From a bacterium (GTDB taxonomy: Bacteria > Armatimonadota > Zipacnadia > Zipacnadales > UBA11051), in contig JAJFUB010000163.1 in assembly GCA_021372615.1 (NCBI GenBank), positions 1 to 33,833 of the forward strand: 33,833 bases of DNA, written 5' to 3'. The notes under the pieces are model-generated. The model was given only the letters and a program-made list of their open reading frames with translations. It had not been told where the DNA came from and did no database searches. The position numbers and the translations under genes were made by a program. This document shows positions 7,083-32,661 of this stretch, piece after piece. Positions within the stretch are counted from its first letter, which is position 1; each line of letters starts with the position of its first letter.

Positions 7083-7364
7083 TACAGGAAGGGAGATCGG
7101 GCACAGACTGTGGCCGGCTCTGAGTACCGGACCGCTCGCGCTGAGGAGGTGTCTCCGGAACACCACACCATCGCCTCGTACTCACTACGGGCGGTCGTAC
7201 TTTTCCTGAGGCCATTCCGTCTCAGGCATGTCTAAGCAGCTACTGTTGACGACGGTTGGCCACACTGGATCTCTGTGCCATCGTCGTGCAATGGTGGGTT
7301 GCAAGGAACCTTGCGGGCGTGCTAAGCTACATACCATCGGCCGGTGTAATCGAACCAGTTCATC

Positions 7365-9566
7365 ATGATCACCCCGCTGCGACCGCAACCGAAGATGCTC
7401 CTGGCCCTCGCCGCCGCTGTGATGCTGGCGGCGACCTGTGTGGTGGCCGATGACACCTCCGCCTCGGACCACGCCACCTTCTACCTCGAGAGCATTCGCC
7501 CGGCCACCATCAAGCTGGAGTCCGTAGCACCGCAGACGACGGACACGAACGCCCTCGTCGTGCCGACCGCCAACACCTACGACCTCAGCATGAACGGCGG
7601 CCTCATGTCGCTCCGCCGCAGCTTCACGCGGACCGTCGTGGACCGCGCCTCCGCGCTGCTGGACATGGCGTACCAGGAGAAGTCCGTCACCGAGGCCGGA
7701 CTCGATCTCGGAAGCACCGCGTTGAGCTTCTCCTCGACCACCACCGAGACCAAGGACGTCGTTGGGCTGTCGCTGGACAGCACGCGCGTAGATGTCATGG
7801 GGCTCAAGCAGTCCTTCGGCGGCGGCGAGAGCGCCTCGTCGCTCGCCCTCACCCGCACCATCACCACGCAGGAACTCGCCTCCGGCGATGTCTCCACGAC
7901 GGTGGACGCCCTCGCGTTCGCCAGCGGGTTGACTAAGCGCAGCGATCTGTCGTTCAAGGCCAGCCAGTTGACCACCGATGAGGTGGGGGCGCTGAACCAG
8001 ACGAACCTCGAGGCCGTCCTGAAGCTCAAGTTCGCGGGCAGCGAGAACGCACAGAGCTACCTCCTCACCCACAAGTTCAACAACCGCCAGGACATCGTCA
8101 TCGAGAAGATGGACTTCAATGTCCCGCTGGCGCTGAGCGGCGGCAAGGGGATCGCCGAGTACCATTCGGCCTTCACGACCACCGATGGGGTGGAGGTCGG
8201 CAAGCGCACCACGCATCTGCTTCTGCCCTTCCGTACGGGAGGCAAGGCGGGGAGCCTCGACCACCAGATCGTGGGGCAGGACAGTGGCTCGGGCATGGTG
8301 GAGACGACCACCACCAAGCTGGTCGCACCCTTCCGTCTGGCCGGCAGCGACTTCTGCACCGAGGGCACGCGCATCGTCCTGCACAAGTCCGGCTCTGACA
8401 CAGAGACACTGGCGCAGAAGCTGACGGCCCCCCTGCTCGGCGGGTTGGCGACACTGCACCACCAGACGGTGAAGACTGAGACCTCGTCGGCGACCACGGA
8501 GGTGGAGCAGTTCGCCGTGACGCTGCCCACCATCAAGCTGGGCACGGTCGCCAGCTTCACCGGATCGCGCACCTCCACCGACACCAGCACCACCGGCGCC
8601 GAGGACGTGACCAGCGTCAGCCTCACCGCCGATCCGCTCAAGCCGCTGCATATCGAGGCCCAGTACAAGCTGGACGACGAGGGCGACACGCAGACGACGA
8701 TCAGCCGCCAGCTCCAGACCAAGTGGGCCATCTGTGACAAGACGTCGCTGGTGGGGCGGTTCTCGGAGGCCGAAGCAGCCAGCACCACCACACCCAACGT
8801 CCTGCGCCTGGTGGAACTCGTGCGCGACCGCGGCAAGTCCGGGATCGGGCTGCGTGCCGGCCTGGCCTCCTACGAGGCGTCCGACGGCACCGAAGTGGAC
8901 GCCGCGCGGCGCTTCGAGGTCACGGCCGGTGACAAGCGGACGGTCGCTGTCAGCGCCGCCTACTGTGAGTATGACACCAGCTCGTACAAGCGGCAGGATG
9001 ACGACGGTACCGTGGCGCTGTCGCTGCAGCATGGCAACCCCGACGGTTTCAGTGTGCGCTGGCGCTATGAGGACAAGCCGGCGCGGGCCGAGCCGCTGCA
9101 GGCGGTGGAGTTGGCGATGAAGGCACTGGGCGGCTCGCTACAGCTCAGCTATGCCGCCAACCCGGTAGCGCCCGATGGCTCGACGGTGCGCCAGGCCGAC
9201 CAGTACGAGGCGACCCTGGGGCGCAAGATCCTCGGTGGCGTCACCATGGAAGTGGCCTACCGCTACCTCGCCTATGACGAGGAAGGCGACAACGACCAGA
9301 GCGTTCGCATCAAGCTGGACGGCGGCAAAGAGGACAAGAGCGGCAAGCTGGCAGTGGCCTTCTACACCGGCGACTACGCCCCGACAGCCAAGTCCACGGT
9401 GACGGCCAGCACGATTCCCCTGACCTCGCTGCTGAGCATCTCATACTCGCACAAGTGGGGCACCGCCGGTCGGATCAGTCTGACCGTCAAGCAGCAGATG
9501 GCCGCCAGCGCCACTCTGGAAGATGACGCGACTGAGGGGCGCCTGGAGTTCCAGACGTCGTTCTAG
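7365..9566 (+). CDS. Large outer-membrane beta-barrel candidate
   Basis: The 733-residue protein starts with a signal peptide (MLLALAAAVMLAATCVVA, about 11-28). It then has many alternating polar/hydrophobic segments of 8-12 residues rich in Ser and Thr, with acidic loops, and no hydrophobic helix. Examples are SLQLSYAAN, GGVTMEVAYRYLAY, DQSVRIKLDGG and KLAVAFYTGDYAP. It ends RLEFQTSF: a final Phe with alternating hydrophobics is the signal recognised by the BAM insertion machinery. These features suggest a barrel with many strands in a diderm outer membrane, but no specific porin family is recognised. It has no neighbours on the same strand within 200 bases. Start uncertainty: ATG at 7365 or an internal ATG at 7395, neither with a strong Shine-Dalgarno. 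Confidence 0.65.
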   Translation: MITPLRPQPKMLLALAAAVMLAATCVVADDTSASDHATFYLESIRPATIKLESVAPQTTDTNALVVPTANTYDLSMNGGLMSLRRSFTRTVVDRASALLDMAYQEKSVTEAGLDLGSTALSFSSTTTETKDVVGLSLDSTRVDVMGLKQSFGGGESASSLALTRTITTQELASGDVSTTVDALAFASGLTKRSDLSFKASQLTTDEVGALNQTNLEAVLKLKFAGSENAQSYLLTHKFNNRQDIVIEKMDFNVPLALSGGKGIAEYHSAFTTTDGVEVGKRTTHLLLPFRTGGKAGSLDHQIVGQDSGSGMVETTTTKLVAPFRLAGSDFCTEGTRIVLHKSGSDTETLAQKLTAPLLGGLATLHHQTVKTETSSATTEVEQFAVTLPTIKLGTVASFTGSRTSTDTSTTGAEDVTSVSLTADPLKPLHIEAQYKLDDEGDTQTTISRQLQTKWAICDKTSLVGRFSEAEAASTTTPNVLRLVELVRDRGKSGIGLRAGLASYEASDGTEVDAARRFEVTAGDKRTVAVSAAYCEYDTSSYKRQDDDGTVALSLQHGNPDGFSVRWRYEDKPARAEPLQAVELAMKALGGSLQLSYAANPVAPDGSTVRQADQYEATLGRKILGGVTMEVAYRYLAYDEEGDNDQSVRIKLDGGKEDKSGKLAVAFYTGDYAPTAKSTVTASTIPLTSLLSISYSHKWGTAGRISLTVKQQMAASATLEDDATEGRLEFQTSF

Positions 9567-10705: not shown

Positions 10706-11395
10706 ATGGTTAATGCTGCGGAATTCTTTCGCGAAGCCGGAACCCGTTTGGTGGGCCATTCGCAGGATCCGCTGTCGGATGAGGAGCTCGTGAGGCGCGC
10801 GCAGGAAACGCGTGACGTCGAAGCGACAGAGTACCTACTGTACAAATACCGCAACCTAGTCCGCGCCAAGGTCAAGTCGTACTTCCTGGTCGGCGCCGAG
10901 CGCGATGACCTGCTGCAGATCGGCATGATCGGTCTGTGGGAAGCCATCACCGACTACCGCGCTGACCGCCACACGTCGTTCGCCTGCTTCGCCAAGGTCT
11001 GCATTCAGCGCCAGATGATCTCGGCCATCAAGGCTGCCACCCGGCAGAAGCAGGCGCCGCTGAACTCCTCCGTCTCCCTGGAAGCCCCCCCCAGCGGCGA
11101 CAGTGAGGACCGCGCGCTGTCCGAGGTGCTCACCTGCAAGCCCGAGGTGGACCCCGAGACCATCGTGCTGGGCAAAGAGGGCGAGCGCCTGTTGCAGGAG
11201 ACGCTGCGCGAGGAGCTTTCGCCGTTCGAGTGGCGGGTCCTCACCGAGTACCGCACCGGCAAGTCCTACCGCGAGATGGCGGAGAAGCTGGACTGCAAGG
11301 TCAAGTCCATAGATAACGCTCTGTCGCGGATCCGGCGCAAGCTGCCCCAGGTCGCCCCGGAGCAGGTGCAGAGACTGCGAGCGCACACCGCCTGA
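10706..11395 (+). CDS. sigH: RNA polymerase sigma factor, SigH (Spo0H) family
   Basis: The 229-residue protein follows the Bacillus SigH pattern closely. It has an N-terminal SDEELVRRAQ helix, region 2 with YRNLVRAKVKSYFLVGAERD, DLLQIGMIGLWEAITDYR and FACFAKVCIQRQMISAIK, and then TRQKQAPLNSSVSLE. C-terminal region 4 is a helix-turn-helix (about 180-215) with KSYREMAEKLDCKVKSIDNALSRIRRKL. SigH directs transition-phase and sporulation-entry genes in Firmicutes; homologues outside that group have other targets. GAGGT precedes the ATG. No anti-sigma gene is adjacent, but two small membrane proteins precede it in the operon. A terminator hairpin follows 21 bases after the stop. Confidence 0.88.
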   Translation: MVNAAEFFREAGTRLVGHSQDPLSDEELVRRAQETRDVEATEYLLYKYRNLVRAKVKSYFLVGAERDDLLQIGMIGLWEAITDYRADRHTSFACFAKVCIQRQMISAIKAATRQKQAPLNSSVSLEAPPSGDSEDRALSEVLTCKPEVDPETIVLGKEGERLLQETLREELSPFEWRVLTEYRTGKSYREMAEKLDCKVKSIDNALSRIRRKLPQVAPEQVQRLRAHTA

Positions 11396-15232: not shown

Positions 15233-17746
15233 TTACTCTCCTCTGAAGCTGATGATACTCCAGATGTGGATTCCTGGCACCTTGACCGTCACCACGCCCT
15301 GCCGCACCTCCGCCGTGAGTGTGGAACCCTCCTGCCCGCTATCGGGCGATGACCATGTGACCGACCCGACCAGCCGCTTTGTTCCCGCTGGCAGCGGCAC
15401 CGACACCGTGAACGGCCCGCAGGGCTTCATCTCGTCCTTGTCGGCGTCCAGGTCTACATTGAGCAGTTGCACGATCACCTGCTGCCCGTGGCGGTAGGGC
15501 CTGATCTGCACCGTTGCCGGGGCGGTCGTCTCCAGGTGCGGCACACCCATCAGCGCTTGCGCGACGGCCTTGAGCATCGCTGTGCGCGCGGGGGCCTCGC
15601 CCGTCGGCGGCGGGATCGAAGCGGTGATGCTGCCTTGCCCGGAGTGCGCCACGGCGGTGTCAGGGACATACCCCGCCGGCGACTTCTGCCAGCCCAGGAA
15701 CGCCTCCCAACCGGGGACCTGCTTGCCGTCGCCGCCCTCGCAGCCGGGGTTCTGCAGCAAGTTCGTGTCGCTGCCCTGCTCGCCGAAGAACAGGTCGTCG
15801 AACCACGCCTGGCCGCTGTGGTAGCGGAACAGGGCATGGACCGTGGCGGACTTGACCGGCTTGCCGGGGTGGATGACGAACTCGGACATCTGCCAGTCGT
15901 GCGTCCCCGCCTTGAACGGCGCCACCTGCGCCCACAGGGGCGTGCCGTCGGTGTAGGTGAGGTCCACCCAGAGCCCGTACTGGTTGTCGGTCGGACCCGA
16001 GACCTGCTCCGCCTTGCTCCAGCCCCGTACCACCAGCGGCTTCGCCTCGGTCTGGTTCACCTGCACCGTCTGCGACGCGCCGCGCGCCGCGCCGATGGCG
16101 TTGGCGGTGAGGAACTCGGCCGGCTCATCCTGCAGGCGCAGCGTCCGAGGGCTGGCGAGCAGGTCGGTCCCCGCTGCCTGGGCCCGTCTGGCGAAGCTCT
16201 CGTCGCGCGTAGCGAACAGTCCGGAGATGGCCAGACGCCCGCCCGCTTGCTGGAACTTGCGCAGGCTCGCGATCTGGGCGTCAGACAGGGCCTCGATGCC
16301 CGGGCAGATCACGAGACCGTACTGCGCCAGACGCCGGTCGAGGTCGCTGTCCGGCCATAGCTCGGCGTCGCCCATGACCTCGATGTTGTAGGGCACGTGG
16401 GCCGCTTCGAGGGCCCGGGCGAAGCCGACGAAGTGGTCGCCGGCCGCCTTCGTCCCGGCCACACCGCCACCGAGGCCTGTCGCTCCCAGGTAGCGCGGGG
16501 CGAACGAGGGCACCGAGTACAACAGCGCCACCCGTGTGTCGGCGGCATAGTTGCCGGTCAGCAGGTCGCTGTGCTGGTGGGCGAACTGCGCGTACTTCGC
16601 CAGCGCCTCGTAGGTGGCGACGCCCATCGGGATGCTGACGTAGCCCTTCTGCGGGTCCCAGCCCAGGTTGTTGATCTCATAGTACGGCGTGGCGCCGTGA
16701 ACGTAGCATTCGGCGACGAAGACCTGCGACCCCGCGACCTGGTCCATGTAGGCCCTGCTGCCGAAGTCCCAGATCCAGGCGGGCTTGCTGTGCCGCCCGC
16801 CCGCGAGGTTGAGCGCATACCACAGGCTGTTGGGGTTCGTGCCAAAGGCGCGGTTGCTGTTCTCCAGGAAGATCAGGTCGCTGGCATCGGACAGCAGCAC
16901 AAAGGGGTACGGGGGCAGGCCGTGCGCCCCCTGGTTGCCGCAGATGGGCACTTCCGGCCGCGCCGCGTGCGAGGCTGCCACTTCGTCCCGCCAGTGCCCC
17001 ACATTCGAGGCCAGCATGAAGCGCGTGTACTCCCGCAGCAGTGGGTCCTCCAGCTTCTCTTCGGCCGGCTTCTTCAGGGCCGTCTGCAGGGCGGCCTTGG
17101 CATCGAAGGTGGCGATGTCAGGGATGCCGAGCGCCTTGAGGCGGTCGGGAGCGAGGCCCTGCAATCGGGCCTTGAAGCCGGCCAGGCACCACTTGCACCA
17201 GCCGCCGTTGTCCCAGCCCACGCCGCAGGGAGAGCCGATGTTGTCCTGGCGCACCAGCGCGCACGTCGGGTCCTTGGCGGCGCGGAGGATCGAGTCCTTG
17301 TGGAAGTCATGCCAGCGCGGCGCGTTGTGGCAGACGTAGTACAGCAGCGGGGTCTCGCTGCCATACCGGAGCGTCTGGAGCTTGCCGGTGCTGTTGACCG
17401 CCACCCCGTTGTCTTCGGTGGGCTCGAAGGCGAAGCCGAACTTGTCCTGCCAGAGCTGGTAGTCACGCTTGGGGCCTTGCGGGAACTCCTGGTACTCCAG
17501 CCCGCCGAGGATCTTGCGCGTGCGGTGGGGATGGTTGACGAACTCAGGCAGGCAACTCCACTCGGCCACTTCGGGCTGGAAGTCGTCGAGGATCTGCTCG
17601 GGCGTCTTGCCGGGGGTGCCCGAAGTCCTGTTGAAGGGGCCGACCATCGGGCAGACGGCGGCCTTCCACCAGGGAGTAGGGGAGAGCTGGGCGAGGCTGA
17701 GAGTGGCCGCGCAGAGCAGGGCCGCCAGCGACAGCACAGGGCGCAT
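15233..17746 (-). CDS. Secreted GH42-like glycoside hydrolase candidate
   Basis: The 837-residue product has a signal peptide (MRPVLSLAALLCAATLSLAQ). Residues 30-400 look like a TIM barrel and contain a GWCKWCLAGFKARL segment (184-197), matching the CxxC...F pattern of GH42-type beta-galactosidase relatives. Residues 403-540 (TRVALLYSVPSFAPRYLG, LVICPGIEALSDAQIASL, FQQAGGRLAISG) fit the flavodoxin/amidotransferase-like trimerisation domain of that family. Residues 560-715 (AWFDDLFF, then NPGCEGGD) resemble a carbohydrate-binding beta-sandwich. Catalytic glutamates could not be assigned with confidence. The start at 17746 was chosen because GGAGG lies 6 bases upstream; the longer frame runs into repeat DNA. 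It probably acts outside the cytoplasm on a galactoside or other plant or microbial glycan. Confidence 0.7.
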   Translation of the reverse strand: MRPVLSLAALLCAATLSLAQLSPTPWWKAAVCPMVGPFNRTSGTPGKTPEQILDDFQPEVAEWSCLPEFVNHPHRTRKILGGLEYQEFPQGPKRDYQLWQDKFGFAFEPTEDNGVAVNSTGKLQTLRYGSETPLLYYVCHNAPRWHDFHKDSILRAAKDPTCALVRQDNIGSPCGVGWDNGGWCKWCLAGFKARLQGLAPDRLKALGIPDIATFDAKAALQTALKKPAEEKLEDPLLREYTRFMLASNVGHWRDEVAASHAARPEVPICGNQGAHGLPPYPFVLLSDASDLIFLENSNRAFGTNPNSLWYALNLAGGRHSKPAWIWDFGSRAYMDQVAGSQVFVAECYVHGATPYYEINNLGWDPQKGYVSIPMGVATYEALAKYAQFAHQHSDLLTGNYAADTRVALLYSVPSFAPRYLGATGLGGGVAGTKAAGDHFVGFARALEAAHVPYNIEVMGDAELWPDSDLDRRLAQYGLVICPGIEALSDAQIASLRKFQQAGGRLAISGLFATRDESFARRAQAAGTDLLASPRTLRLQDEPAEFLTANAIGAARGASQTVQVNQTEAKPLVVRGWSKAEQVSGPTDNQYGLWVDLTYTDGTPLWAQVAPFKAGTHDWQMSEFVIHPGKPVKSATVHALFRYHSGQAWFDDLFFGEQGSDTNLLQNPGCEGGDGKQVPGWEAFLGWQKSPAGYVPDTAVAHSGQGSITASIPPPTGEAPARTAMLKAVAQALMGVPHLETTAPATVQIRPYRHGQQVIVQLLNVDLDADKDEMKPCGPFTVSVPLPAGTKRLVGSVTWSSPDSGQEGSTLTAEVRQGVVTVKVPGIHIWSIISFRGE

Positions 17747-17818
17747 GTTCCGCCTCCGCATAGGATGTGAGGTATAGACTTCGCCGGGCGGGCGCCGGGA
17801 ACCTACCCGCGCAACGCC

Positions 17819-17918
17819 GTTGGAGGGGCCGGATACCATCCGGCCCGCCGCTCTGGCGCACGTTGCCAAGCAGCGGGATGACCCTACGGCGGGCCGGCTG
17901 ATAGCCGGCCCCTCCAAC
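17819..17918. repeat. REPIN-like paired palindrome between the GH gene and dgt
   Basis: The left arm (17819-17850) contains GGGGCCGGATACCATCCGG and the right arm (17887-17918) contains GGCCGGCTGATAGCCGGCC. Over 32 bases the arms are reverse complements with three mismatches, all within the central heptamer (ATACCAT against CTATCAG). The element lies in the divergent intergenic region, 52 bases before the dgt start. It is the most complete copy of the type also seen at 14684 and, as one arm, at 2660. Confidence 0.88.
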
Positions 17919-17969
17919 AGCGCCATGGCGGCAGGTCGCGTGGCCCGCCCTGGCGAACTGCCCAACGCC

Positions 17970-19037
17970 ATGACCATCCGCGAACGCACCGAGCAGTGGG
18001 AGCGTGAGCACCTCAGCCCGTACGCGCAGCTCAGCGCTGAGAGCCGCGGCCGGCGCGTGCCCGAACAGCCCGATCCCGTCCGCACCGACTACCAGCGCGA
18101 TCGCGACCGCATCATCCACCTCTGTCGCGCCTTCCGCCGCCTCGCGCACAAGACACAGGTCTTTATCTCGCCGCACGAAGACCACTTGCGCACGCGCCTG
18201 ACCCACACGCTCGACGTGTCGCAGATCGGCCGCACCATCGCGAAGGCACTGCGCCTGAATGAGGAGCTGACCGAGGCCATCGCGCTGGCCCATGACGTCG
18301 GCCACACCCCCTTCGGCCATTCCGGTGAGGCCGCGCTGGACGAAGCCTACCGCCGCTACGACCCGGAGGGCGGCTTCAACCACTACGAGCACAGCCTGCG
18401 CGTGGTAGACGAGCTGGAGCGCGACGGGTCGGGCCTGAACCTGACCGTCGAGACGCGCCTGGGCATCGTGCAGCACAGCAAGGGCGAGTCAGACCTGGCC
18501 GAGGTGCTCGCAGGCTCCGACCAGGGCGGGGCAGGCGAGATGACGCTCGAAGCGATGATCATCCGCCTGTCGGACCGTATCGCCTACCTGAACCACGACC
18601 TGGACGATTGCCTCCGGGCGGGCCTGCTGACCCAGGATGATGTGCCGCCCGACGTGCTGCGGGTGTTGGGCTACCGGCACGGCCAGCGCGTGGGGCGCAT
18701 GGTCACCGACGTGATTGACCAGAGCCTCGACCAGCCGCGGGTCACCATGGGTCCCGAGATGATCGAGGCGACCGACGCCCTGCGCCGGTTCATGTTCGAC
18801 CAGGTCTACTACCGGCCCGAGCTGATGAATGAGGTCAGGAAGGTGCGCGGCATCATTGGGGGCCTGTTCGAGGTCTACATGACCAATGACGCGGCGCTCT
18901 TCGAGGCCACCGGGCTGGTCCCCGACGACACGCGACGGCGCGCCCGCGCCGTCACCGACTACATCGCCGGCATGACCGACCGCTTCGCCCGCGCCCAGTA
19001 CGTCCAGCACTTCCTGCCCACCGGCTATCCCTTCTGA
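17970..19037 (+). CDS. dgt: dGTPase-like HD phosphohydrolase
   Basis: The 355-residue protein has the HD-domain metal ligands of the deoxyguanosinetriphosphate triphosphohydrolase family: H79 in TRLTHTLDV, H108-D109 in AHDVGHTPFGHSGE, and a later Asp in LSDRIAYLNHDLDD. The N-terminal half also has DYQRDRDRIIHLCRAFRRLAHKTQV, typical of the group. Such enzymes release inorganic triphosphate from dNTPs, affecting dNTP pools; the exact nucleotide preference cannot be read from sequence. The start at 17970 was chosen because the upstream open frame (to 17820) is repeat DNA. No good Shine-Dalgarno is visible. It converges on the GH39-like gene 19 bases away. Confidence 0.9.
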   Translation: MTIRERTEQWEREHLSPYAQLSAESRGRRVPEQPDPVRTDYQRDRDRIIHLCRAFRRLAHKTQVFISPHEDHLRTRLTHTLDVSQIGRTIAKALRLNEELTEAIALAHDVGHTPFGHSGEAALDEAYRRYDPEGGFNHYEHSLRVVDELERDGSGLNLTVETRLGIVQHSKGESDLAEVLAGSDQGGAGEMTLEAMIIRLSDRIAYLNHDLDDCLRAGLLTQDDVPPDVLRVLGYRHGQRVGRMVTDVIDQSLDQPRVTMGPEMIEATDALRRFMFDQVYYRPELMNEVRKVRGIIGGLFEVYMTNDAALFEATGLVPDDTRRRARAVTDYIAGMTDRFARAQYVQHFLPTGYPF

Positions 19038-19056: not shown

Positions 19057-21840
19057 CTACTCCATCGCTCTGGCGGTCCGGAGCCCCTGGCTCAGGCTCC
19101 GCATCTGCTGGACGATGCTGCGCGTCTGCGCCGCCTTGACCGCCGGGGGCAACTGCAGCGCCTCGTTGGCCGCGGCCTGCGCGCTGGTGAGGCGTGCGGT
19201 GGCCGCAGAGCTGACGGACGCGCCATCCAGCCACCGCCCGACGTTCACGAAGTAGGACATCGTCTCCAGGGAGGGCCCCGAGTCCAGCGTCCCGTCCACT
19301 TCCAGCAGCGGCCGGTCCGCCAGTGAAGCGGGCAGGCTGACGTTGAGGTAGCCGTCCATCGTGAAGGTCGCGGCCTGCACCCACGGCTCCGGCTCGTCCG
19401 GGAGCGTGACCGACACCGGGGCCATGGCCGACGGCTGTCCGGCCCCGGCCCGGAAGGGCACTCGCACGGTGGCCGGCGACCACCCCGCCGGCAGCCTGAG
19501 CTGCAGCGTGCCGCTGGTCTCGTGCCCCAGGTAGTTGTAGGCCCACACGTTCAAGATGTGCGTCTGGCCGGGCTCCAGCATCCGCGCTTTGCGGAACGAC
19601 TGCCCGGTGCTGAAGTCCACGATTGGCACGACGCGCAGGACGACGGGCTTCTCCAGGGCGTTGAGGTAGTAGGCGACCTGGGCCTTGTGGAGCAGGGCTG
19701 TATACGTGCCGCGCCGTTGGACCTGGTTCAGGCGCCACTTGGTCCACAGGCAGCGCTGAAGCAGATGGTCGGCCACGGGCAGTTCGGCATCGGGATGGCG
19801 GGCGACCAGGCCGGAGCGGATCGTGTCCAGGTAGCGGTTCATGGCCTGCACCGTGGCCCCGGGCAGGGCCAGGTTGTTCCACACCCCGCTGCGGTCGTCG
19901 GCAATCTCGCCCAGCCATTCCTCCATGCGCGCCAGGCGCCACAGGTTGTTGGCGACCTTCACCGGCACCTCCTCGCCGGCGGTGCAGGTGTGCAGCAACC
20001 ACACGCTCAGGGACATGCAGGCGTTCTGTGCTGTCACCAGGGCCTGCGGCGCCGCCGACGGCGTCGTGGCGAGGGCCGTTTCCACCTGCTGGACCGCGGT
20101 CGCGAGGAGGGTGAAGCGGCTGGGCCCGAGCAGGTCCGCCAGGTCCTGCTCCATGGGGTTGGCGTACCACACGAAGCAGGTCGAGCTGGCCTGGGGGGTG
20201 CCGTAGGGCGTGGTGGTCAGCAGGTCGAACCGTCGCCGGAAGGCTTCGGGGAGGTAGCGCGTGTCACTGACCCCCAGGATCACCAGCGGCTCCGCGGTGA
20301 GGCGGACCGTGACGCTCGTGCCGCCGCCCAGGCTGGTGCACTTGCCGAACGGGTCAATCTTCACGGCCGTCCGCGAGAGGCTGATGGTCGCGGTCGCCCC
20401 GTCATCCGACCAGGCGGCCAGCATGGGCGCCCCGTGCTTGAGAAACAGGTGCGCCGTGATGTGGTCGCCCAGGTTGACCGGCCCCACCTCCACCGCATCG
20501 GAGAGCAGCTTGCGCGTGGCCGCGAAGGCCGGGTACAGGGGCGTGGGCTGCAGCTTGCCCGTGTCAGCCCGCAGCAGGGCCGTGCCGGGAGCGTAGTCCT
20601 CATCGGTGCCGATGTAGCCCCCCAGGCACCCCGAACGGAAGAAGGACACCTCCCGCCAGGCCTTCAGCGTCAGGTAGCACCGCAGCAGCTCACCCGGTGT
20701 CTCCTGGTAGGTGGTGTAGTCCGCGGACCCGCGGCGGCCCTGGGCATAGCACTCGGTGTGCGACGTCTCACGCGGAGCGCCGACGCACCAGGGGATCTGC
20801 TGGGAGCCGGAGTACCAGATGCGCAGTGCCTCCTCGACGTCGCCCCCCGTGTGCAGCCCGACGTAGTCGAAGCAGTGCTTGGGCGACCCCGAGGCCATCA
20901 TGCCCATGGCGGCCCAGTTGCCCGTCGAGCCCCCGTACACCATCGGAGCCTCGGGGACCCGCCGTCGCCCCGCAGCCCAGCTCATGTGCAGCAGCTCCAT
21001 GTAGCGGTTCCAGTCGCCCATGTAGAAGCAGATGTCCGCCTCGTTCCACATCTCCCAACTGTGCGTCCAGGGCAGGGACTGGCGGGACGGCCGGCCCTGC
21101 GCCGGCATGACGCCCGTCGCGGGCCACGAGACGGTCTTGTTGCGGGCGAAGCCGGTCACCTGGTCGAGGTATAGCCCGTACTCGTTGGGCTCCGTTGGGT
21201 GCCAGGTGAAGACGGCGTTGTTCGCCCAGACGTCGCTGAAGGTGTTGGCGGGCTTCTCGGCCAGGAAGCTGGGCGTATAGCCCAGGACCAGCATCATCTG
21301 GATGCCGTGGCGGGCAGCCATGGCGTACCAGTCCTCCAGCAGGTCCGTCCGCCACACCCCGCGCTGCGGCTCAAAGGGCGGCCAGGGCACCGTCTGGCGC
21401 ACCAGGCGCACTCCCATCTGCGCGGCCGTCTCCAGAATCTCATCGGTCGAGCCGTTGCCGGGGCACAGGCCAAAGATCGAGTAGTCACCCGGGTCCTCAT
21501 AGGGGCGCGGCAGCACACAGAATGTCTCCCGGTGGGTCCCGGACGGCCACTTCAGATCGAGCGTGTAGTGACCGACGCCAAAGGACGGCAGCGTCAGCGA
21601 CACGGCCTGTGTGCCCCCCACGCCGATGCTGGACACATAGCGGCACGCGCCGTAGTAGTCCGTCACCCGGACGCTCACGGTCCGTCGCGGGGCAGGCAGG
21701 CTCAGCGTCAGGTCACGCGTCTCGTCCGTGAAGTAGGCGTTGGCCAGACGGGGGAAGCTCACGGTGCAGTCGTCCGCCCACACGACGGCACAGAGCAGCA
21801 ACGCCGGCAGCACAAGAGCCGGGCAGAAACGGCGCGGCAT
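19057..21840 (-). CDS. Secreted clan GH-A (GH39-like) glycoside hydrolase candidate
   Basis: The 927-residue product has a signal peptide (PRRFCPALVLPALLLCAVVWA). A beta domain (about 25-115) is followed by a TIM barrel: DYSIFGLCPGNGS, MGVRLVRQTVPWPPFEPQRG, QMMLVLGYTPSFLAEKP and, importantly, HSWEMWNEADICFY, where the Glu (about residue 267) matches the acid/base of clan GH-A enzymes such as GH39 xylosidases and iduronidases. A nucleophile Glu was not identified. The C-terminal half (about 540-927) is unrecognised, partly helical, with beta domains near 730-850. The ATG at 21840 was chosen because GGAGG lies 5 bases upstream; the ATG at 21852 overlaps that site. It probably degrades extracellular polysaccharide. 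Confidence 0.72.
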   Translation of the reverse strand: MPRRFCPALVLPALLLCAVVWADDCTVSFPRLANAYFTDETRDLTLSLPAPRRTVSVRVTDYYGACRYVSSIGVGGTQAVSLTLPSFGVGHYTLDLKWPSGTHRETFCVLPRPYEDPGDYSIFGLCPGNGSTDEILETAAQMGVRLVRQTVPWPPFEPQRGVWRTDLLEDWYAMAARHGIQMMLVLGYTPSFLAEKPANTFSDVWANNAVFTWHPTEPNEYGLYLDQVTGFARNKTVSWPATGVMPAQGRPSRQSLPWTHSWEMWNEADICFYMGDWNRYMELLHMSWAAGRRRVPEAPMVYGGSTGNWAAMGMMASGSPKHCFDYVGLHTGGDVEEALRIWYSGSQQIPWCVGAPRETSHTECYAQGRRGSADYTTYQETPGELLRCYLTLKAWREVSFFRSGCLGGYIGTDEDYAPGTALLRADTGKLQPTPLYPAFAATRKLLSDAVEVGPVNLGDHITAHLFLKHGAPMLAAWSDDGATATISLSRTAVKIDPFGKCTSLGGGTSVTVRLTAEPLVILGVSDTRYLPEAFRRRFDLLTTTPYGTPQASSTCFVWYANPMEQDLADLLGPSRFTLLATAVQQVETALATTPSAAPQALVTAQNACMSLSVWLLHTCTAGEEVPVKVANNLWRLARMEEWLGEIADDRSGVWNNLALPGATVQAMNRYLDTIRSGLVARHPDAELPVADHLLQRCLWTKWRLNQVQRRGTYTALLHKAQVAYYLNALEKPVVLRVVPIVDFSTGQSFRKARMLEPGQTHILNVWAYNYLGHETSGTLQLRLPAGWSPATVRVPFRAGAGQPSAMAPVSVTLPDEPEPWVQAATFTMDGYLNVSLPASLADRPLLEVDGTLDSGPSLETMSYFVNVGRWLDGASVSSAATARLTSAQAAANEALQLPPAVKAAQTRSIVQQMRSLSQGLRTARAME

Positions 21841-21968
21841 CAGGACCTCCATAGTCAGCGTAGTGTAGAGAATCTCGGACGATGGGGCCGCCGGCTTGAG
21901 CCCTCGTGTGACAGGCAGGTCAGCGGGAGCACGGGAGCGAACATGACCAGGCTCTGAGGAGGTGCCCC

Positions 21969-23615
21969 ATGCTGAACCTGATGCTGGCCGCGCTGCTGGC
22001 CGGTGGTGTGCCCGATGGCGCCGTAACGATCAAGGTCGGAGACCTGCAGGTGGCGCTGGAGTCGGCCAACGCCTGGAACATCTCGAGCCTGAACCTGGGC
22101 GACAAACAGCTCATCCTGCCCGCCGGCGGACGTGGCGCCGCCATCAGCGTCGGCGGACAGTGGTACGGCGGCGGCATGCGGGCGCAGAGCGAGACCGTCA
22201 CCGCGCTCAAGGTCGTCGCGGACGGGAAGGAAGTGACCCTCGCCCCGCCGCAGACCATCACCGGCGACACAGTCACGGTCAGCAAGGAGTCCATGCTGGC
22301 CGGCATCAAGCACACCGCCGAGACCACCTTCGAGAAGGACCTGTTCGTCCAGCGCCACGTCTTCGAGGCGACCGAGGACGTGAGCCTCGGGTCCTTCTAC
22401 GGCTTCATCTACTCGCTGTGGCCGCAGGCGAAGAACTGGCTGGCCAAGCCGCTGCGCGGCAACCTGCAGCGCGGGGAGTTCAACGCCGATGGCGGCAACA
22501 AGCCCGGCACGCCGGTGCGCTGGATAGCCCAGTACGACCCGGCACTGGGTGTCGGCACGCTGGCCTACTTCATCGAGCCCCTGAGCGGCCCCGGCGCCTT
22601 CCACGCCTTCTGGGACAAGGACACCTACCACAAGCTGCTGGTCCAGCCGATGAAGGGCGCCCTGGCCAAGGGCACGAAGTTGGAGTTGACGATGGTGATG
22701 CAGCCCTTCGCCGCCACTCCCGACACCTGGGAGCAGAAGGCGCTGGAGGTCGCGAAGGCCTTGCAGACGCGCTTCCCCGCGAAGGAGCCGACCGGTCCGG
22801 ATGCCACGTATGCCGAGGGCATCCCCGAGGACGGCGTGCTGACCTTCAAGACGGCGCACTACACCGTGCCCCTGTCGGCCAAGCAGGCCTGGACCATCTA
22901 CAAGATCCTGTATGACGGCAACGTGATCGCGCACGAGCGGGGCTTCTATGGCACCGTGATGATCCCCGCCGGCAGCAACTTCTGGGGCACGGGGCACACC
23001 GAGGGCGGCCGCGAGATCGTGCAGGCCCTCAAGGTGGTGGTGGACGGCAAGGAGCAGCCGGTAGCGGTCGACCAGACGCTCACGGGCTCCAAGCTGCTGT
23101 TGGTGAAGGACTCGCTGATCTGGAAGCTCAAGTGCCATGCCGAGATCGAGGTCAGCGATGACCGGATCATCGAGCGCACGGAACTCGAGGCCACCGAAGC
23201 CTGCGAGCTGAAGCTGCTGTACTACTTTATGCACTGCTTCGTGCCGACCACGACCAAATGGGCCGCCGAGCTTCCTGACGGCAGCTCCACCGAGGGGGAG
23301 TTGAAGAGCGCCGGCGGCTTTGCGGTCAACCAGGACACCCGCTGGGTGGCGCAAGTGGAGCCGAACCTGCGCTATGGGTTCTTGTGCTATACTCCGCAGG
23401 TCATCACCGGGCCCGGCAGCGCCGCGAAGATCTGGGACCTGGATGCGAGCCGCTACCACAAGTTCTACTACCAGGCCAACGGCGCGCGGCAGCTCAAGGC
23501 AGGGGAGAAGCTGGACTACACCGTGGTGGTGCAGGTGGTGCCCAACGAGGCCGGCGACTGGGCGGCGACCAAGACGGCGGCGAGCACGCTCAAGCAGCTC
23601 TACCCGCCCAAGTAG
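21969..23615 (+). CDS. Secreted protein of two tandem homologous domains
   Basis: The 548-residue protein has a short hydrophobic N-terminus (MLNLMLAALLAGGV) that probably acts as a signal peptide. It then has two homologous halves, about 18-268 and 291-546. Paired segments are ALKVVADGKE/ALKVVVDGKE, FEATEDVSL/LEATEACEL, DTYHKLLVQ/SRYHKFYYQ and ALQTRFPAK/TLKQLYPPK. The predicted beta-rich composition suggests two beta-sandwich domains of a sugar-active or sugar-binding type, but no family was recognised. A perfect GAGGAGGT Shine-Dalgarno precedes the ATG. It is followed 43 bases later by a Gfo/Idh/MocA oxidoreductase on the same strand and is divergent from the GH39-like gene, which suggests a glycan-use locus. 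Confidence 0.8.
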   Translation: MLNLMLAALLAGGVPDGAVTIKVGDLQVALESANAWNISSLNLGDKQLILPAGGRGAAISVGGQWYGGGMRAQSETVTALKVVADGKEVTLAPPQTITGDTVTVSKESMLAGIKHTAETTFEKDLFVQRHVFEATEDVSLGSFYGFIYSLWPQAKNWLAKPLRGNLQRGEFNADGGNKPGTPVRWIAQYDPALGVGTLAYFIEPLSGPGAFHAFWDKDTYHKLLVQPMKGALAKGTKLELTMVMQPFAATPDTWEQKALEVAKALQTRFPAKEPTGPDATYAEGIPEDGVLTFKTAHYTVPLSAKQAWTIYKILYDGNVIAHERGFYGTVMIPAGSNFWGTGHTEGGREIVQALKVVVDGKEQPVAVDQTLTGSKLLLVKDSLIWKLKCHAEIEVSDDRIIERTELEATEACELKLLYYFMHCFVPTTTKWAAELPDGSSTEGELKSAGGFAVNQDTRWVAQVEPNLRYGFLCYTPQVITGPGSAAKIWDLDASRYHKFYYQANGARQLKAGEKLDYTVVVQVVPNEAGDWAATKTAASTLKQLYPPK

Positions 23616-28377: not shown

Positions 28378-30531
28378 TCAGCCGCCCCGTCGCCGTCGCT
28401 GTTTCTCCATCTCGATCCAGAACCGCTGCGCCCATTCGCCATACTGGCTATTGGGGTCGTTCTCAATGATGGACTTGACTTCCTCGCGCGCTTCGTCCCA
28501 GTTGCCGGCCCGGATGTGCATCTGGGCCAGGGCTGCCGAGCGCGGCGAGTCGGTCGCGCTGTGGGCGTGCTTGGCGGTGAAGAAGTCAGCGCGCTTGGCC
28601 ATGACATCGGCGATGTACATGTGCGGCTCGGGCTTGAGGATGGCGATGAAGATCAGGTAGCCGATGATGATGAAGACCCACAGGCCCTTGGGGGCACGCG
28701 TTCTCAGCGCCGCCACGCGTGTCTGACGGCTGGTCTCCAGCAGGCCCTTCTCAGTGGCCTGCAGACGGTCCACCTCTTGCTTGGTCATGTTCTCGACGAG
28801 AGTCGTCTCACCGGCGTTGGCGCGCTTACCGGCCTGGACGGTGCGCTCGTCCTGCGCCCATCGCTCCAGACCGAAGCCCTCGTCCAGTCGAACCGCACGG
28901 GTGATGGACACCGCGCCCTCGTTGACCGCCACCGCTCCCTGCTGCTTGCCGATCTCCAACTGGAAGGCCGTGCCGCGCACGCCGAGGGTCAGCAGCGGGG
29001 TGTCCACCGAGAAGGACGACTGGCGGCTCATCATCTTGCGGACCTTGGTGAAGAAAGCCCCGACGTTGACCCGCAAGGAGGTGATGACGCCGCCGTTCTC
29101 GAGCATCTCCAGGTTCTCGACCCGCATCTCGGTGTTCTGGAACAGGCGCATCTCACTACCATCGTGGAAGCGCAGGAAGGCGTGTGACTGGCGGCCCGTG
29201 ACCACCAGGTCGCCCGGGAAGAGCTTCTCGCCCCGAACCGCCGGCTGCAGGGCCTGCGTGGTCCGGTGGGCCACCTGCACGACGCCGTTCATGTCGCTCA
29301 CGATCGCCGTGCCCTCGGGCACGCGGCCCACCACATAGAAGGCCACGTAGACATAGAGACCGGCGAAGAGAGCGAGCATCCCCAGGGCACCGGCGATGCG
29401 CACCGGCCAGGACGTCTGGCGCCATACGCGCACCACCATCGGCAACTGCATGTCGTCGGGCAGGGCCAGCAGGTTCCCCCGCCGGGCCTGAGCGATCATG
29501 TAGGCGGTCATGTTCTGCCACCGGTCGGCCAGCAGGCCGATGATCAGCAGCGGCGCCTCGGCAATCGGGCCGGCAATCGGCATGCGCAGTTGGTTCACGA
29601 GCCAGTTGATCAGGGCGATGACCGCCGCGCCGATCGTGGCAGTGCGCAGGTTGCCGTTGCCGCTGGTGACCGACCCGCCGCCGATGAGCGCGGCGGTCAG
29701 CGGGGTCAGCATCCAGACCATCTGCCCGGAGGGGCCGATGATGGCCATCGAGGAGGAGGCAATCAGCAGTCCGGCCAGACCGGCGATGAGGCCGCTGGCG
29801 AGGAAGGCCATGAGCACGTTCTCCGCCGAGCCCAGGGCGGCGCCTTGCACGCGGTTGGGGGCACTGCCCACGGCCGCGAAGGTCTCGTGGTTGAACAGCA
29901 GCCGGGCGCCGAGCAGGGCAACGAAGAACAGGGCGAGCACGACGGGGATGCCGCCCACGTTGGTCTCGCCCACCGCCGCCAGTTCCGGCGCGGCCATGAC
30001 GAGGTCCAGGCGCGAGGTGGCGTACATGACCAGTTGCAGCGCCACCGCGCCGGTCATGATGGTCACCATCGCCGAGGAGATGCGGGTGCGGCCGGCGAGG
30101 AGGCCATTGATGGCCCCCAGCAGCAGACCGACGCCTAGCGCGCCGGCGATTGCCAGCCCGTAGCCGTAGGGCGACAGCACCGCCGCCGTACACGCCGCCA
30201 GCCCCGCGATCGAGCCCGCGCTGAAGTCATAGTGCCCCTTCATCAGGGGGAAGGTGACACCCAGGGTCACCATGCCCACCAGGCCAAAGCCGAGCAGGAG
30301 CTGGCGCATGGCCACTCCCGAGGGCCCCAGCAGAGCCGCCATCACCAGTAGCACCACCACCGCGAAGAACGGGGCCATCTGCCCAACGGCCGTGCCTTGG
30401 AGCCAGTAGTAAGGATTGCGGCCCATCGCCCGTCGCAGCTCAAGATCAAATAGCTTGCTCCCACAAGCCTCGCAGACCCGAGCCCCGAGAGGATGGGCAT
30501 GACGACAGCGTCCACAGGTTACGCTGGCCAT
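28378..30531 (-). CDS. Zinc ribbon / RbsC-like permease / FecR / TPR fusion protein
   Basis: The 717-residue protein combines parts usually encoded separately. Residues 5-24 are a zinc ribbon (cysteines 6, 9, 20 and 23). About 50-340 is a multi-helix domain like ribose/sugar ABC permeases (BPD_transp_2): HYDFSAGSIAGLAA matches the DLSVGS motif, and LIGGGSVTSGNGNLRTATIG the later cytoplasmic loop. A helix at 378-400 leads into a FecR domain (403-545: FPGDLVVTGRQSHAFLRFHDG, FSVDTPLLTLGVRGTAF, VNEGAVSI). Another helix (617-634) precedes a TPR-like tail (660-705). With both helices counted, FecR would lie outside the membrane, zinc ribbon and TPR inside. No ABC ATPase or binding-protein gene is nearby, so transport is uncertain and sensing is plausible. 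It starts 31 bases after the cyclase stop. Confidence 0.85.
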   Translation of the reverse strand: MASVTCGRCRHAHPLGARVCEACGSKLFDLELRRAMGRNPYYWLQGTAVGQMAPFFAVVVLLVMAALLGPSGVAMRQLLLGFGLVGMVTLGVTFPLMKGHYDFSAGSIAGLAACTAAVLSPYGYGLAIAGALGVGLLLGAINGLLAGRTRISSAMVTIMTGAVALQLVMYATSRLDLVMAAPELAAVGETNVGGIPVVLALFFVALLGARLLFNHETFAAVGSAPNRVQGAALGSAENVLMAFLASGLIAGLAGLLIASSSMAIIGPSGQMVWMLTPLTAALIGGGSVTSGNGNLRTATIGAAVIALINWLVNQLRMPIAGPIAEAPLLIIGLLADRWQNMTAYMIAQARRGNLLALPDDMQLPMVVRVWRQTSWPVRIAGALGMLALFAGLYVYVAFYVVGRVPEGTAIVSDMNGVVQVAHRTTQALQPAVRGEKLFPGDLVVTGRQSHAFLRFHDGSEMRLFQNTEMRVENLEMLENGGVITSLRVNVGAFFTKVRKMMSRQSSFSVDTPLLTLGVRGTAFQLEIGKQQGAVAVNEGAVSITRAVRLDEGFGLERWAQDERTVQAGKRANAGETTLVENMTKQEVDRLQATEKGLLETSRQTRVAALRTRAPKGLWVFIIIGYLIFIAILKPEPHMYIADVMAKRADFFTAKHAHSATDSPRSAALAQMHIRAGNWDEAREEVKSIIENDPNSQYGEWAQRFWIEMEKQRRRRGG

Positions 30532-30562
30532 GGTCTCACCTCACAGAATGTGAACCACCGCG

Positions 30563-32569
30563 TCAGGACGGCGCCACGGGCGGAGGGGATGAGGATGCTC
30601 CCGCGGTGGCGCCTGTCTTGCGTCCGACGATCTCGAAGACCTCGATGGGCACCGGGTGCCCGCGAATCTCGTGCATGCCGTGGCTGCGCGTCTCAATCTG
30701 ATCACTGACCCGTTCCGCCACTTCCTTGGTGCACAGGATCGTGGTCCCCAGTTCCTTGTTGTAGCCCTGCAGACGCGCGGCCAGGTTGATGGCCTGCCCC
30801 AGCACCGTGTACTGCGTGCGGATGTGCGAGCCCAGGCTTCCCACCAGCGCCTCCCCGGTGTTGAGGCCGATCCCGATGCGCATCGGCCCCGGAAGGGTGC
30901 CTGACGATACCCAGCGCTCGTTGAGCCCGTCCAGGGCCGCGATCATGTTGATCGCCAGGTCCACCGACCGCTGCACGTGGTCCGTCTGGTCCTGGATGGC
31001 GTTGAACGTCACGAAGATCTCGTCCCCGACGATGTTGTCAATCGTCCCCTCGACATCGAAGGCGAGCTGTGTGACCGACTCGAAGTACGTGTTCAGCACC
31101 GCGATGACATCGTGGGGATCCGCTGTGGCGGACCAGGCGGTGAAGCCGCGCACATCGGCGAAGAGCGCCGTCACGGGGCGCTTCACACCGGCGGCGCGCA
31201 CCTTCATCTCGCCCGTGTCGAGCTTGGCCACGACCTGGGGCGGAGCATAGCGCCCGAACTCATCGCGCAGGCGCTTGCGGGCGGCCTCCTCCGTGCACAG
31301 GCGGAAGACAGCGATCACGCCGAAGGTCAGCACCATCGCCAGATTCGGGGCCAGACCCGGCCAGACGACGCCGGACTGCGAGAAGGCCTTCAGCCCCAGG
31401 ACGTTGTAGCCGGCCAGGAGCAGTGCGACAACGAAGAGCCCCATGGCGGGCCGCAGGAAGGCTCCTGCCAGTGCCGCCAGCACCGCCACGACCAGCACCA
31501 GGCCCAGAGCGTCCGACGGCTGGGTTGGCTTGAGCAGGCGCTCCTGCAGCAGGCTCTCCAGGCCCTGTGCCAGGACCTCGACTCCCGGCATCTTCGGTCC
31601 CATGGGCGTCGGGTGCTGGTCCAGCAGCCCCTCGGCGGTGAAGCCGACGATGACCACCTTGTCCTTGAAGGTGCCCCGGCTGAAGCGGCCCTGCAGCACG
31701 TCCACGTAGGAGACGGCCTTGACAGTGCCCGGTGGGCCGATGAAGTTGATCAGGAAGCGGCCCTGGCTATCGAGGGGGACCTGGCGGCCGGGGCCCAACT
31801 GGGCGGCGCGGCTCAGGTCCATCTGCATGTTCTCGATGGGCAGGCCCTGCGCGAACGAGGTGAGCTTGAGCAGCAAGGTGGGGTAGAGGCGGACGCCCGT
31901 GCGGGCCATCTCCTGCACGAGCAAGACCCCACGACGCATGATGCCATCGGGATCAGGCACGCCCACAAGTGCCCCGGCGCCCGCGGCCACCTGGCCGAGG
32001 GAAGCCTGCGGCGCGACCATCGCGCCGGCCGTCGGCAGCAGAGGACGATGGGCGACCAACGCGGGAGCGACCGCAAAGGCCTCCGGGTTGCCCGCGCCGG
32101 CGGCGCGGCTGCGAAGCTGGCCCGGGTACAGACCGAGAATGACGTTGCCGCTGGCCTGGCAGGCGGCGGCGAGGGCTGCGTCATCGGCGGGGTTCTTGGA
32201 GGGTTCGGCGAAGATGACGTCGAAAGCAATGGCCTTGGGCTTGTCGGCCTGGAGGTTCTGCAGGAGCCGGGCATGCACCCGGCGGTCCCACGGCCAACGC
32301 CCCAGGTCGGGATCGGCGAGGCTGCGATCGTCAATGGCGATGATGGCGACGCGTTCGGGGGCGTGGACTTCAGCGCGGTAGTAGAAGCGGGAGTCGAGGG
32401 TCTTCAACTCGTAGCTGTACAGCGGCCCCCCGGGGCGGCATAGCAAGCTGCAGACGACCGCGATGGCGACGGCCATCAACAGCCACCAGACAACGAGACG
32501 CCAGCGCCCAGACCGCTGCGCGCGCGGCTCCGGAGCCTGCGGCGCGTCCGGGCCTCCCTCCGTACTCAC
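30563..32569 (-). CDS. CHASE2-domain class III nucleotide cyclase
   Basis: The 668-residue protein has a transmembrane helix (about 25-43), an extracytoplasmic CHASE2 sensor (about 50-345; RVAIIAIDDRSLADPDLGRWPWDR and KAIAFDVIF are typical), about three C-terminal helices (352-424) and a class III cyclase domain (463-650). Metal-binding Asp472 (FADVRGFT) and Asp516 (VGDE), and transition-state Asn595 and Arg599 (INLAARL), are present. The purine-selecting positions are not standard: Asn512 where adenylate cyclases have Lys (GTIDNIVGD), and Gln592 where they have Asp or Thr (TVLGQAIN). The product may be cAMP, cGMP or another cyclic nucleotide. The start is GTG at 32569 (GGTGG upstream); 32575 and 32578 are alternatives. 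It is first in an operon with the permease-FecR fusion. Confidence 0.9.
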   Translation of the reverse strand: MSTEGGPDAPQAPEPRAQRSGRWRLVVWWLLMAVAIAVVCSLLCRPGGPLYSYELKTLDSRFYYRAEVHAPERVAIIAIDDRSLADPDLGRWPWDRRVHARLLQNLQADKPKAIAFDVIFAEPSKNPADDAALAAACQASGNVILGLYPGQLRSRAAGAGNPEAFAVAPALVAHRPLLPTAGAMVAPQASLGQVAAGAGALVGVPDPDGIMRRGVLLVQEMARTGVRLYPTLLLKLTSFAQGLPIENMQMDLSRAAQLGPGRQVPLDSQGRFLINFIGPPGTVKAVSYVDVLQGRFSRGTFKDKVVIVGFTAEGLLDQHPTPMGPKMPGVEVLAQGLESLLQERLLKPTQPSDALGLVLVVAVLAALAGAFLRPAMGLFVVALLLAGYNVLGLKAFSQSGVVWPGLAPNLAMVLTFGVIAVFRLCTEEAARKRLRDEFGRYAPPQVVAKLDTGEMKVRAAGVKRPVTALFADVRGFTAWSATADPHDVIAVLNTYFESVTQLAFDVEGTIDNIVGDEIFVTFNAIQDQTDHVQRSVDLAINMIAALDGLNERWVSSGTLPGPMRIGIGLNTGEALVGSLGSHIRTQYTVLGQAINLAARLQGYNKELGTTILCTKEVAERVSDQIETRSHGMHEIRGHPVPIEVFEIVGRKTGATAGASSSPPPVAPS

Positions 32570-32632
32570 TAACACCACCCGCCTTCCGGGTCCCCAGCAA
32601 CCGAGGATGCGGCAGTGTAGTCTAGTAACAAG

Positions 32633-32661
32633 ATTGTAATTCAGCGCTCGGCAGCGGTCAA
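32633..32661 (-). promoter_or_regulatory. Promoter of the cyclase / FecR-permease operon
   Basis: On the minus strand TTGACC (32656-32661) and TACAAT (32633-32638) are separated by exactly 17 bases, giving a leader of about 57 bases. It lies in a 132-base divergent gap; no comparably good promoter is visible for the plus-strand hydrolase. Confidence 0.8.

Follow-up and report, generated by a model that had tools for sequence, protein, structure and literature searches.

Organization of the locus

The window, i.e. the whole stretch of DNA that was analyzed (33,833 nucleotides), represents one entire contig of a 6.4-Mb assembly. It harbors two co-directional open reading frames (ORFs) on the minus strand that are separated by 31 bases, the first of which encodes a CHASE2 class III nucleotide cyclase and the second a fusion of a zinc ribbon, an RbsC-like permease core, a FecR domain and a TPR-like tail (Table 1). 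For the cyclase, a GTG start codon was chosen, with alternative GTG codons at 32575 and 32569 also being possible. A promoter-like site is located 54 bases ahead of this start, compared to a chance expectation of 0.4 such sites in the scanned stretch, and the upper end of the locus at 32661 thus belongs to the promoter and not to a gene. No terminator-like site was found between the cyclase and fusion genes. The arrangement that had been proposed from the letters, namely a closely spaced pair behind a single promoter-like site, is upheld.

The pair is neighbored by a 205-aa gene without a family match, a PEP carboxykinase gene (pckA) and an esterase-like gene. An Rfam search of the window gave no match, and NCBIfam at an E-value of 1e-5 gave none for the long ORFs at 7185-9032, 15233-18085, 19057-21852 and 21969-23615, some of which are perhaps not genes. 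At 10706-11395 of the window, upstream of a glyS gene, lies a gene related to that of the sporulation sigma factor SigH.

Table 1. Features of the cyclase/fusion locus with their positions in the window and the evidence they are based on.
Feature	Position	Strand	Evidence
Sigma-70-like promoter TTGACC-17-TACAAT	32633..32661	-	Consensus scan, 10/12 positions
CHASE2 class III nucleotide cyclase gene, 671 aa	30563..32578	-	ORF; Pfam
CHASE2 extracytoplasmic sensor domain, residues 40-369	31472..32461	-	Pfam
Class III cyclase domain, residues 467-641	30656..31180	-	Pfam; alignments
Zinc ribbon / RbsC-like permease / FecR / TPR fusion gene, 717 aa, ATG start	28378..30531	-	ORF; Pfam; seven full-length homologues
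Zinc ribbon at the N terminus, residues 6-27, predicted to be cytoplasmic	30451..30516	-	Four invariant Cys; weak Pfam DZR
RbsC/BtuC-type ABC permease core, ten predicted TM helices, residues 47-339	29515..30393	-	Pfam BPD_transp_2; model
Degenerate ATPase-coupling segment, residues 214-243	29803..29892	-	Alignment with 20 ordinary permeases
Basic cytoplasmic linker, residues 340-375	29407..29514	-	Alignment, topology
TM helix 11, residues 376-401	29329..29406	-	Hydropathy, model
Extracytoplasmic FecR/PupR-type cell-surface signalling domain plus the small beta subdomain ahead of it, residues 403-597	28741..29325	-	Pfam; model
TM helix 12, residues 615-634	28630..28689	-	Hydropathy, model
Cytoplasmic TPR-like tail, residues 644-717	28381..28602	-	Weak Pfam TPR_19; TPR structure matches

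The cyclase and its missing or unrecognized receiver

Both Pfam matches of the first gene product, CHASE2 (6e-59) and Guanylate_cyc (1.8e-19), exceed their curated cut-offs, which confirms the initial assignment as a membrane cyclase with an extracytoplasmic CHASE2 sensor. In alignments, the metal aspartates (Asp475 and Asp519) as well as the transition-state pair (N598 and R602) are retained. The lysine involved in base recognition is replaced by Asn515 (codon 31034-31036), an exchange that is limited to the window, L034 and L035, with lysine occupying this site in all other cyclases in which the motif was found. Since the window cyclase lacks the lysine of adenine recognition, its product is uncertain.

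No cNMP-binding domain (PF00027) was found in the window genome despite the presence of several CHASE2 cyclases, and the domain is absent from 32 of the 42 genomes searched. As such, the receiver of the pathway in the window genome is either missing or unrecognized.

Domain composition and topology of the fusion protein

In the fusion protein, the matches to FecR (7.7e-13, residues 442-541) and BPD_transp_2 (7.6e-10, residues 77-318; 38.8 bits versus a cut-off of 26.8) lie above the curated cut-offs, and those to a zinc ribbon (DZR, residues 6-27, E-value 0.008) and to TPR_19 (residues 655-697, E-value 0.00024) lie below. The weaker ends are backed by the alignment, in which the cysteines C6, C9, C20 and C23 are invariant across all eight homologues, and by a TPR-like fold, so that the four-part composition suggested by the sequence-only reading holds. 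Most of the order-level homologues further share an RRGNLL motif within the basic linker.

The predicted topology leads from a cytoplasmic zinc ribbon through the ten-helix core to a cytoplasmic linker, and via helix 11, an external FecR domain and helix 12 back to a cytoplasmic TPR tail. The positive charges of the short loops fit this course (positive-inside pattern), and both lines of evidence back the earlier placement of FecR outside the inner membrane, with the topology as such being a prediction. The model of the whole fusion is of moderate confidence (pLDDT 67.5), and a Foldseek search with it returned no match below 0.001. The structure matches to permease, FecR and TPR proteins stem from VIA-align of the fusion model: the permease core resembles HmuU (Z 15.3) and BtuC (Z 13.1) over 242-270 residues, and the C-terminal part resembles TPR structures with a Z of about 7. 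Folded alone, the FecR region reaches a pLDDT of 88.5 and resembles the signalling domains of BDI_1681 (4m0n; Z 16.0) and PupR (6ovk; Z 15.8) over 132-139 residues.

Loss of the ATPase-coupling segment

Eight fusion cores were aligned with 20 ordinary RbsC-type permeases from the same and other genomes. The positions that are conserved in the latter are kept in the fusions to 55% in the N-terminal part and to 54% in the C-terminal part, compared to only 12.5% in the coupling segment. In ordinary permeases this segment reads GRxxYAxGxNxxAAxxxGV; in the fusions the motif is lost, including a four-residue deletion that removes GR in eight of eight cases. The membrane motifs D-[FL]-S-x-G and GG are largely retained. 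By analogy with what is established for type II importers, we take the degenerate segment to be the putative coupling helix.

As the segment is both deleted and scrambled, ATP-driven transport by the fusions is unlikely, and we advise against classifying the locus as an ABC importer. It had already been noted that the permease lacks its usual partners, and indeed neither an ATPase nor a binding-protein gene adjoins the window fusion according to the gene content of the window and a family search. The window genome encodes eight other BPD_transp_2 permeases, all of which score much higher. From our point of view, the core very probably serves as a sensor or scaffold rather than as an active pump. 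Of the original proposal that an RbsC core had been turned into a ligand-binding or scaffold module, the departure from transport is thus strengthened by the lost coupling segment, with ligand binding staying a conjecture.

Distribution and integrity of the fusion

The full-length fusion occurs in eight Armatimonadota genomes, seven belonging to the order of the window and one being more distant. This number is a count and not a test, as the underlying phylum search (291 genomes, three candidates scored per genome) used a profile that was built from the same eight members. A first contig-wide genome scan with a single fusion protein as query gave no match; with the alignment, from which a few short patterns were used, all full-length matches were found in Armatimonadota.

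A CHASE2 cyclase adjoins all eight full-length fusions, in reversed gene order in the most distant member (G054), and neither of the flanking genes tested (pckA and the 205-aa gene) is conserved alongside the homologous pairs. An assembly join within the gene, or homologues that are split into separate genes, would have undermined the fusion; both are ruled out by the seven other assemblies that contain it at full length, each time next to the cyclase. The search for the pair across genomes thus came out in favor of the sequence-only reading.

Two subfamilies can be distinguished, one comprising the window, G013 and G009 (48-51% identity to the window) and one restricted to the genus g3, with 33-35% identity to the window fusion. 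Since the nearest kin of the window fusion belong to other families, either duplication with loss or transfer must have occurred. In g3, the genus tested, purifying selection acts on the modules of the fusion, with dN/dS values of 0.10-0.22 in every module but the linker (about 0.17 for the permease core); the linker reached 0.35 in one comparison and was saturated in the other. Three g3 homologues, each from a different species, possess an additional in-frame HTH-like segment at their N terminus (L036:2486-2758, L037:3623-3850 and L038:10670-10894) with a dN/dS of 0.10-0.14; the two that were scanned match HTH_17 with E-values of 0.002-0.008, which is under the cut-off.

A fusion fragment in G036 (L041:2033-2511) joins residues 334-419 to residues 639-714, lacks FecR and resides on a 3.2-kb contig; it represents either a decayed copy or an assembly error. 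The 400-aa FecR proteins were considered as a split ancestor of the type zinc ribbon-helix-FecR-helix-TPR without permease and were rejected, as their N terminus is basic and devoid of a zinc ribbon and their C terminus is not TPR-like.

FecR and CHASE2 as cognate pairs

CHASE2 is present in 24 of 25 related genomes tested. A FecR gene is found within 5 kb of 66 of their 107 CHASE2 genes, versus 1.1 expected, and in 48 of these 66 cases it lies downstream on the same strand. The other 41 have no FecR gene within 5 kb, which is partly due to contig ends. The earlier remark that FecR proteins occur near CHASE2 cyclases elsewhere has thereby proven correct, also in view of the published cases discussed below. 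In the window genome, six of seven CHASE2 genes are situated near one of seven FecR genes.

The FecR domain is carried by divergent 300-aa anchored proteins, by 400-aa single-helix proteins, by proteins with barrel-like C termini, by the permease fusion and by long FecR-TPR-TonB-type barrels, the latter mostly beside CHASE2 kinases. One such barrel protein (1166 aa; L096:1822-7409) has a CHASE2 histidine kinase from the same genome as its neighbor.

When these mounts, which were assigned from length, orientation and sequence reading before the trees were built and include a few uncertain cases, were mapped onto a CHASE2 tree of 53 regions, 7 class changes were counted versus 33.6 after shuffling; a FecR tree of 53 domains gave 6 changes versus 33.6. 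In the CHASE2 tree, the partners of the seven order-level permease fusions make up a single clade (98/96), in the FecR tree the permease-borne domains form one group (85/86), and the division of the seven order-level pairs into two subgroups is identical in the two trees. The CHASE2 region of G054 sits on a long branch outside the permease clade, with a single clade not being rejected (AU p 0.27). Since both trees sort by FecR mount, we conclude that the two domains are passed on together as cognate pairs, with the permease being one mount among several. Co-inheritance of this kind can also stem from shared regulation. As for the idea that the two genes form a signalling unit, the conserved FecR-CHASE2 pair speaks in its favor, and the flow of signal within the unit stays conditional.

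Discussion

The explanation that we lean towards, if only slightly, is a two-protein envelope sensor in which a transporter-derived platform with its FecR domain acts on a CHASE2 cyclase. The cyclase would expose CHASE2 outside the inner membrane and its class III domain to the cytoplasm. The fusion would represent a platform of about 12 TM helices that is no longer coupled to an ABC ATPase and that holds the FecR/PupR-type domain outside the membrane, beside CHASE2. The input could be either a small solute occupying what used to be the permease cavity, for which we see a clearly less than even chance, or a partner of FecR in the envelope or outer membrane. A signal at the platform would then alter the FecR domain and its contact with CHASE2 and thereby switch the cyclase, and the cytoplasmic zinc ribbon and TPR tail might recruit further cytoplasmic partners. 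A direct FecR-CHASE2 contact is probable. The mount of FecR would decide what is sensed, with an outer-membrane barrel reporting outside signals and a former permease reporting something at the inner membrane. A more far-reaching version, in which the stripped importer permease is the solute-sensing subunit of the cyclase, passes its signal sideways via FecR and operates in genomes that mostly have no known cNMP receptor, so that both input and receiver would be of a new kind, appears rather unlikely to us.

The permease core might also be merely a membrane anchor or dimerization scaffold, i.e. a transporter fold without a ligand, with FecR alone doing the sensing. The other FecR mounts of the order (single helix, outer-membrane barrel and others) all manage without a permease, and only about half of the permease columns are conserved, but purifying selection on the ten-helix core and the largely kept motifs are more than an anchor needs; we consider this reading unlikely, albeit far from negligible. 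That the fusion is instead a working importer or channel, either sharing an ATPase or transporting passively while FecR and the cyclase report the flux, would agree with the retained fold and several membrane motifs, and the ATPases of the eight ordinary permeases could in principle be shared. However, the loss of the coupling segment in all eight homologues and the lack of an ATPase or binding-protein gene next to the window copy render it improbable.

The HTH-like extension of three homologues and the FecR/PupR fold itself could be taken to indicate an anti-sigma system, with a sigma factor as the target of the fusion and with the cyclase being next to it by chance or by common transcription. 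Yet Pfam places a zinc ribbon and a permease, and no anti-sigma domain, at the N terminus of the fusion, neither an ECF sigma factor nor a TonB receptor is attached to or located beside the pair, and the invariant neighbor is CHASE2. This possibility is therefore very improbable, we likewise advise against classifying the locus as a FecR anti-sigma system, and the analogy to TonB-linked FecR regulation that was drawn from the sequence does not hold. Slightly less far-fetched, but still hard to favor, is that the cyclase domain of the window subfamily has degenerated into a non-catalytic regulator and that the pair signals by protein contact instead of a cyclic nucleotide. The lysine-to-asparagine exchange confined to this subfamily and the genome without a cNMP-binding domain would be in line with such a role, but the intact metal aspartates and Asn-Arg pair argue against it.

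Returning to the two-protein envelope sensor, its broader relevance lies in the largely unknown sensing function of CHASE2, as has been stated for the CHASE2 kinases of one study (PMC5192318), with Sinorhizobium meliloti and its sensing through an outer-membrane barrel as the exception. Our data suggest a testable general answer, namely that CHASE2 reads a cognate FecR domain and that evolution swaps the FecR scaffold, including a retired sugar permease. They also raise the question of the cyclic-nucleotide receiver where a genome encodes many cyclases but no cNMP-binding domain.

The placement of FecR beside CHASE2 is already published, and for the permease-FecR combination a literature search found no relevant report. 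In Campylobacterota, CHASE2 cyclases are clustered with a FecR outer-membrane protein, a TPR protein and a phosphodiesterase (PMC9239204), and in S. meliloti the CHASE2 cyclases CyaD1, CyaD2 and CyaK respond via NsrA, an outer-membrane barrel (PMC13001267), and the Clr targets include the FecR protein SMc02177 (PMC5498481). Both share with the window a CHASE2 class III cyclase that is tied by genome position or pathway to an envelope FecR, and the Campylobacterota cluster also a TPR protein. Their FecR domain, however, resides on a periplasmic or outer-membrane protein, whereas that of the window is held between two helices behind an ABC-permease core, in one chain with a zinc ribbon and TPR. 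The Burkholderia BiofilmReg operon, composed of FecR-LysM and a CHASE2 histidine kinase (PMC5192318), displays the same two-gene FecR-CHASE2 core, but its output consists of a kinase and a response regulator and it contains no permease.

With RbsC-type permeases, the fusion shares the profile match, the BtuC-like fold and part of the membrane motifs; it differs in the missing coupling segment, in the absence of a nearby ATPase and binding protein, and in being fused to FecR and TPR. FecR/PupR anti-sigma regulators likewise resemble it in the fold of the signalling domain and its extracytoplasmic placement, but not in their anti-sigma domain, ECF sigma factor and TonB receptor partner. A transporter fold also serves within a signalling protein in transceptors such as CbrA, an SLC5 transporter fused to a histidine kinase (PMC13022988, PMC7096432). 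CbrA derives from another transporter family, and the output enzyme of the window is a separate CHASE2 cyclase. Overall, the constant pairing of the fusion with a membrane cyclase suggests that what looks like a former sugar transporter has been turned into a signalling antenna, and if this is true, ABC permeases would join the transporter folds that have been recruited for signalling.
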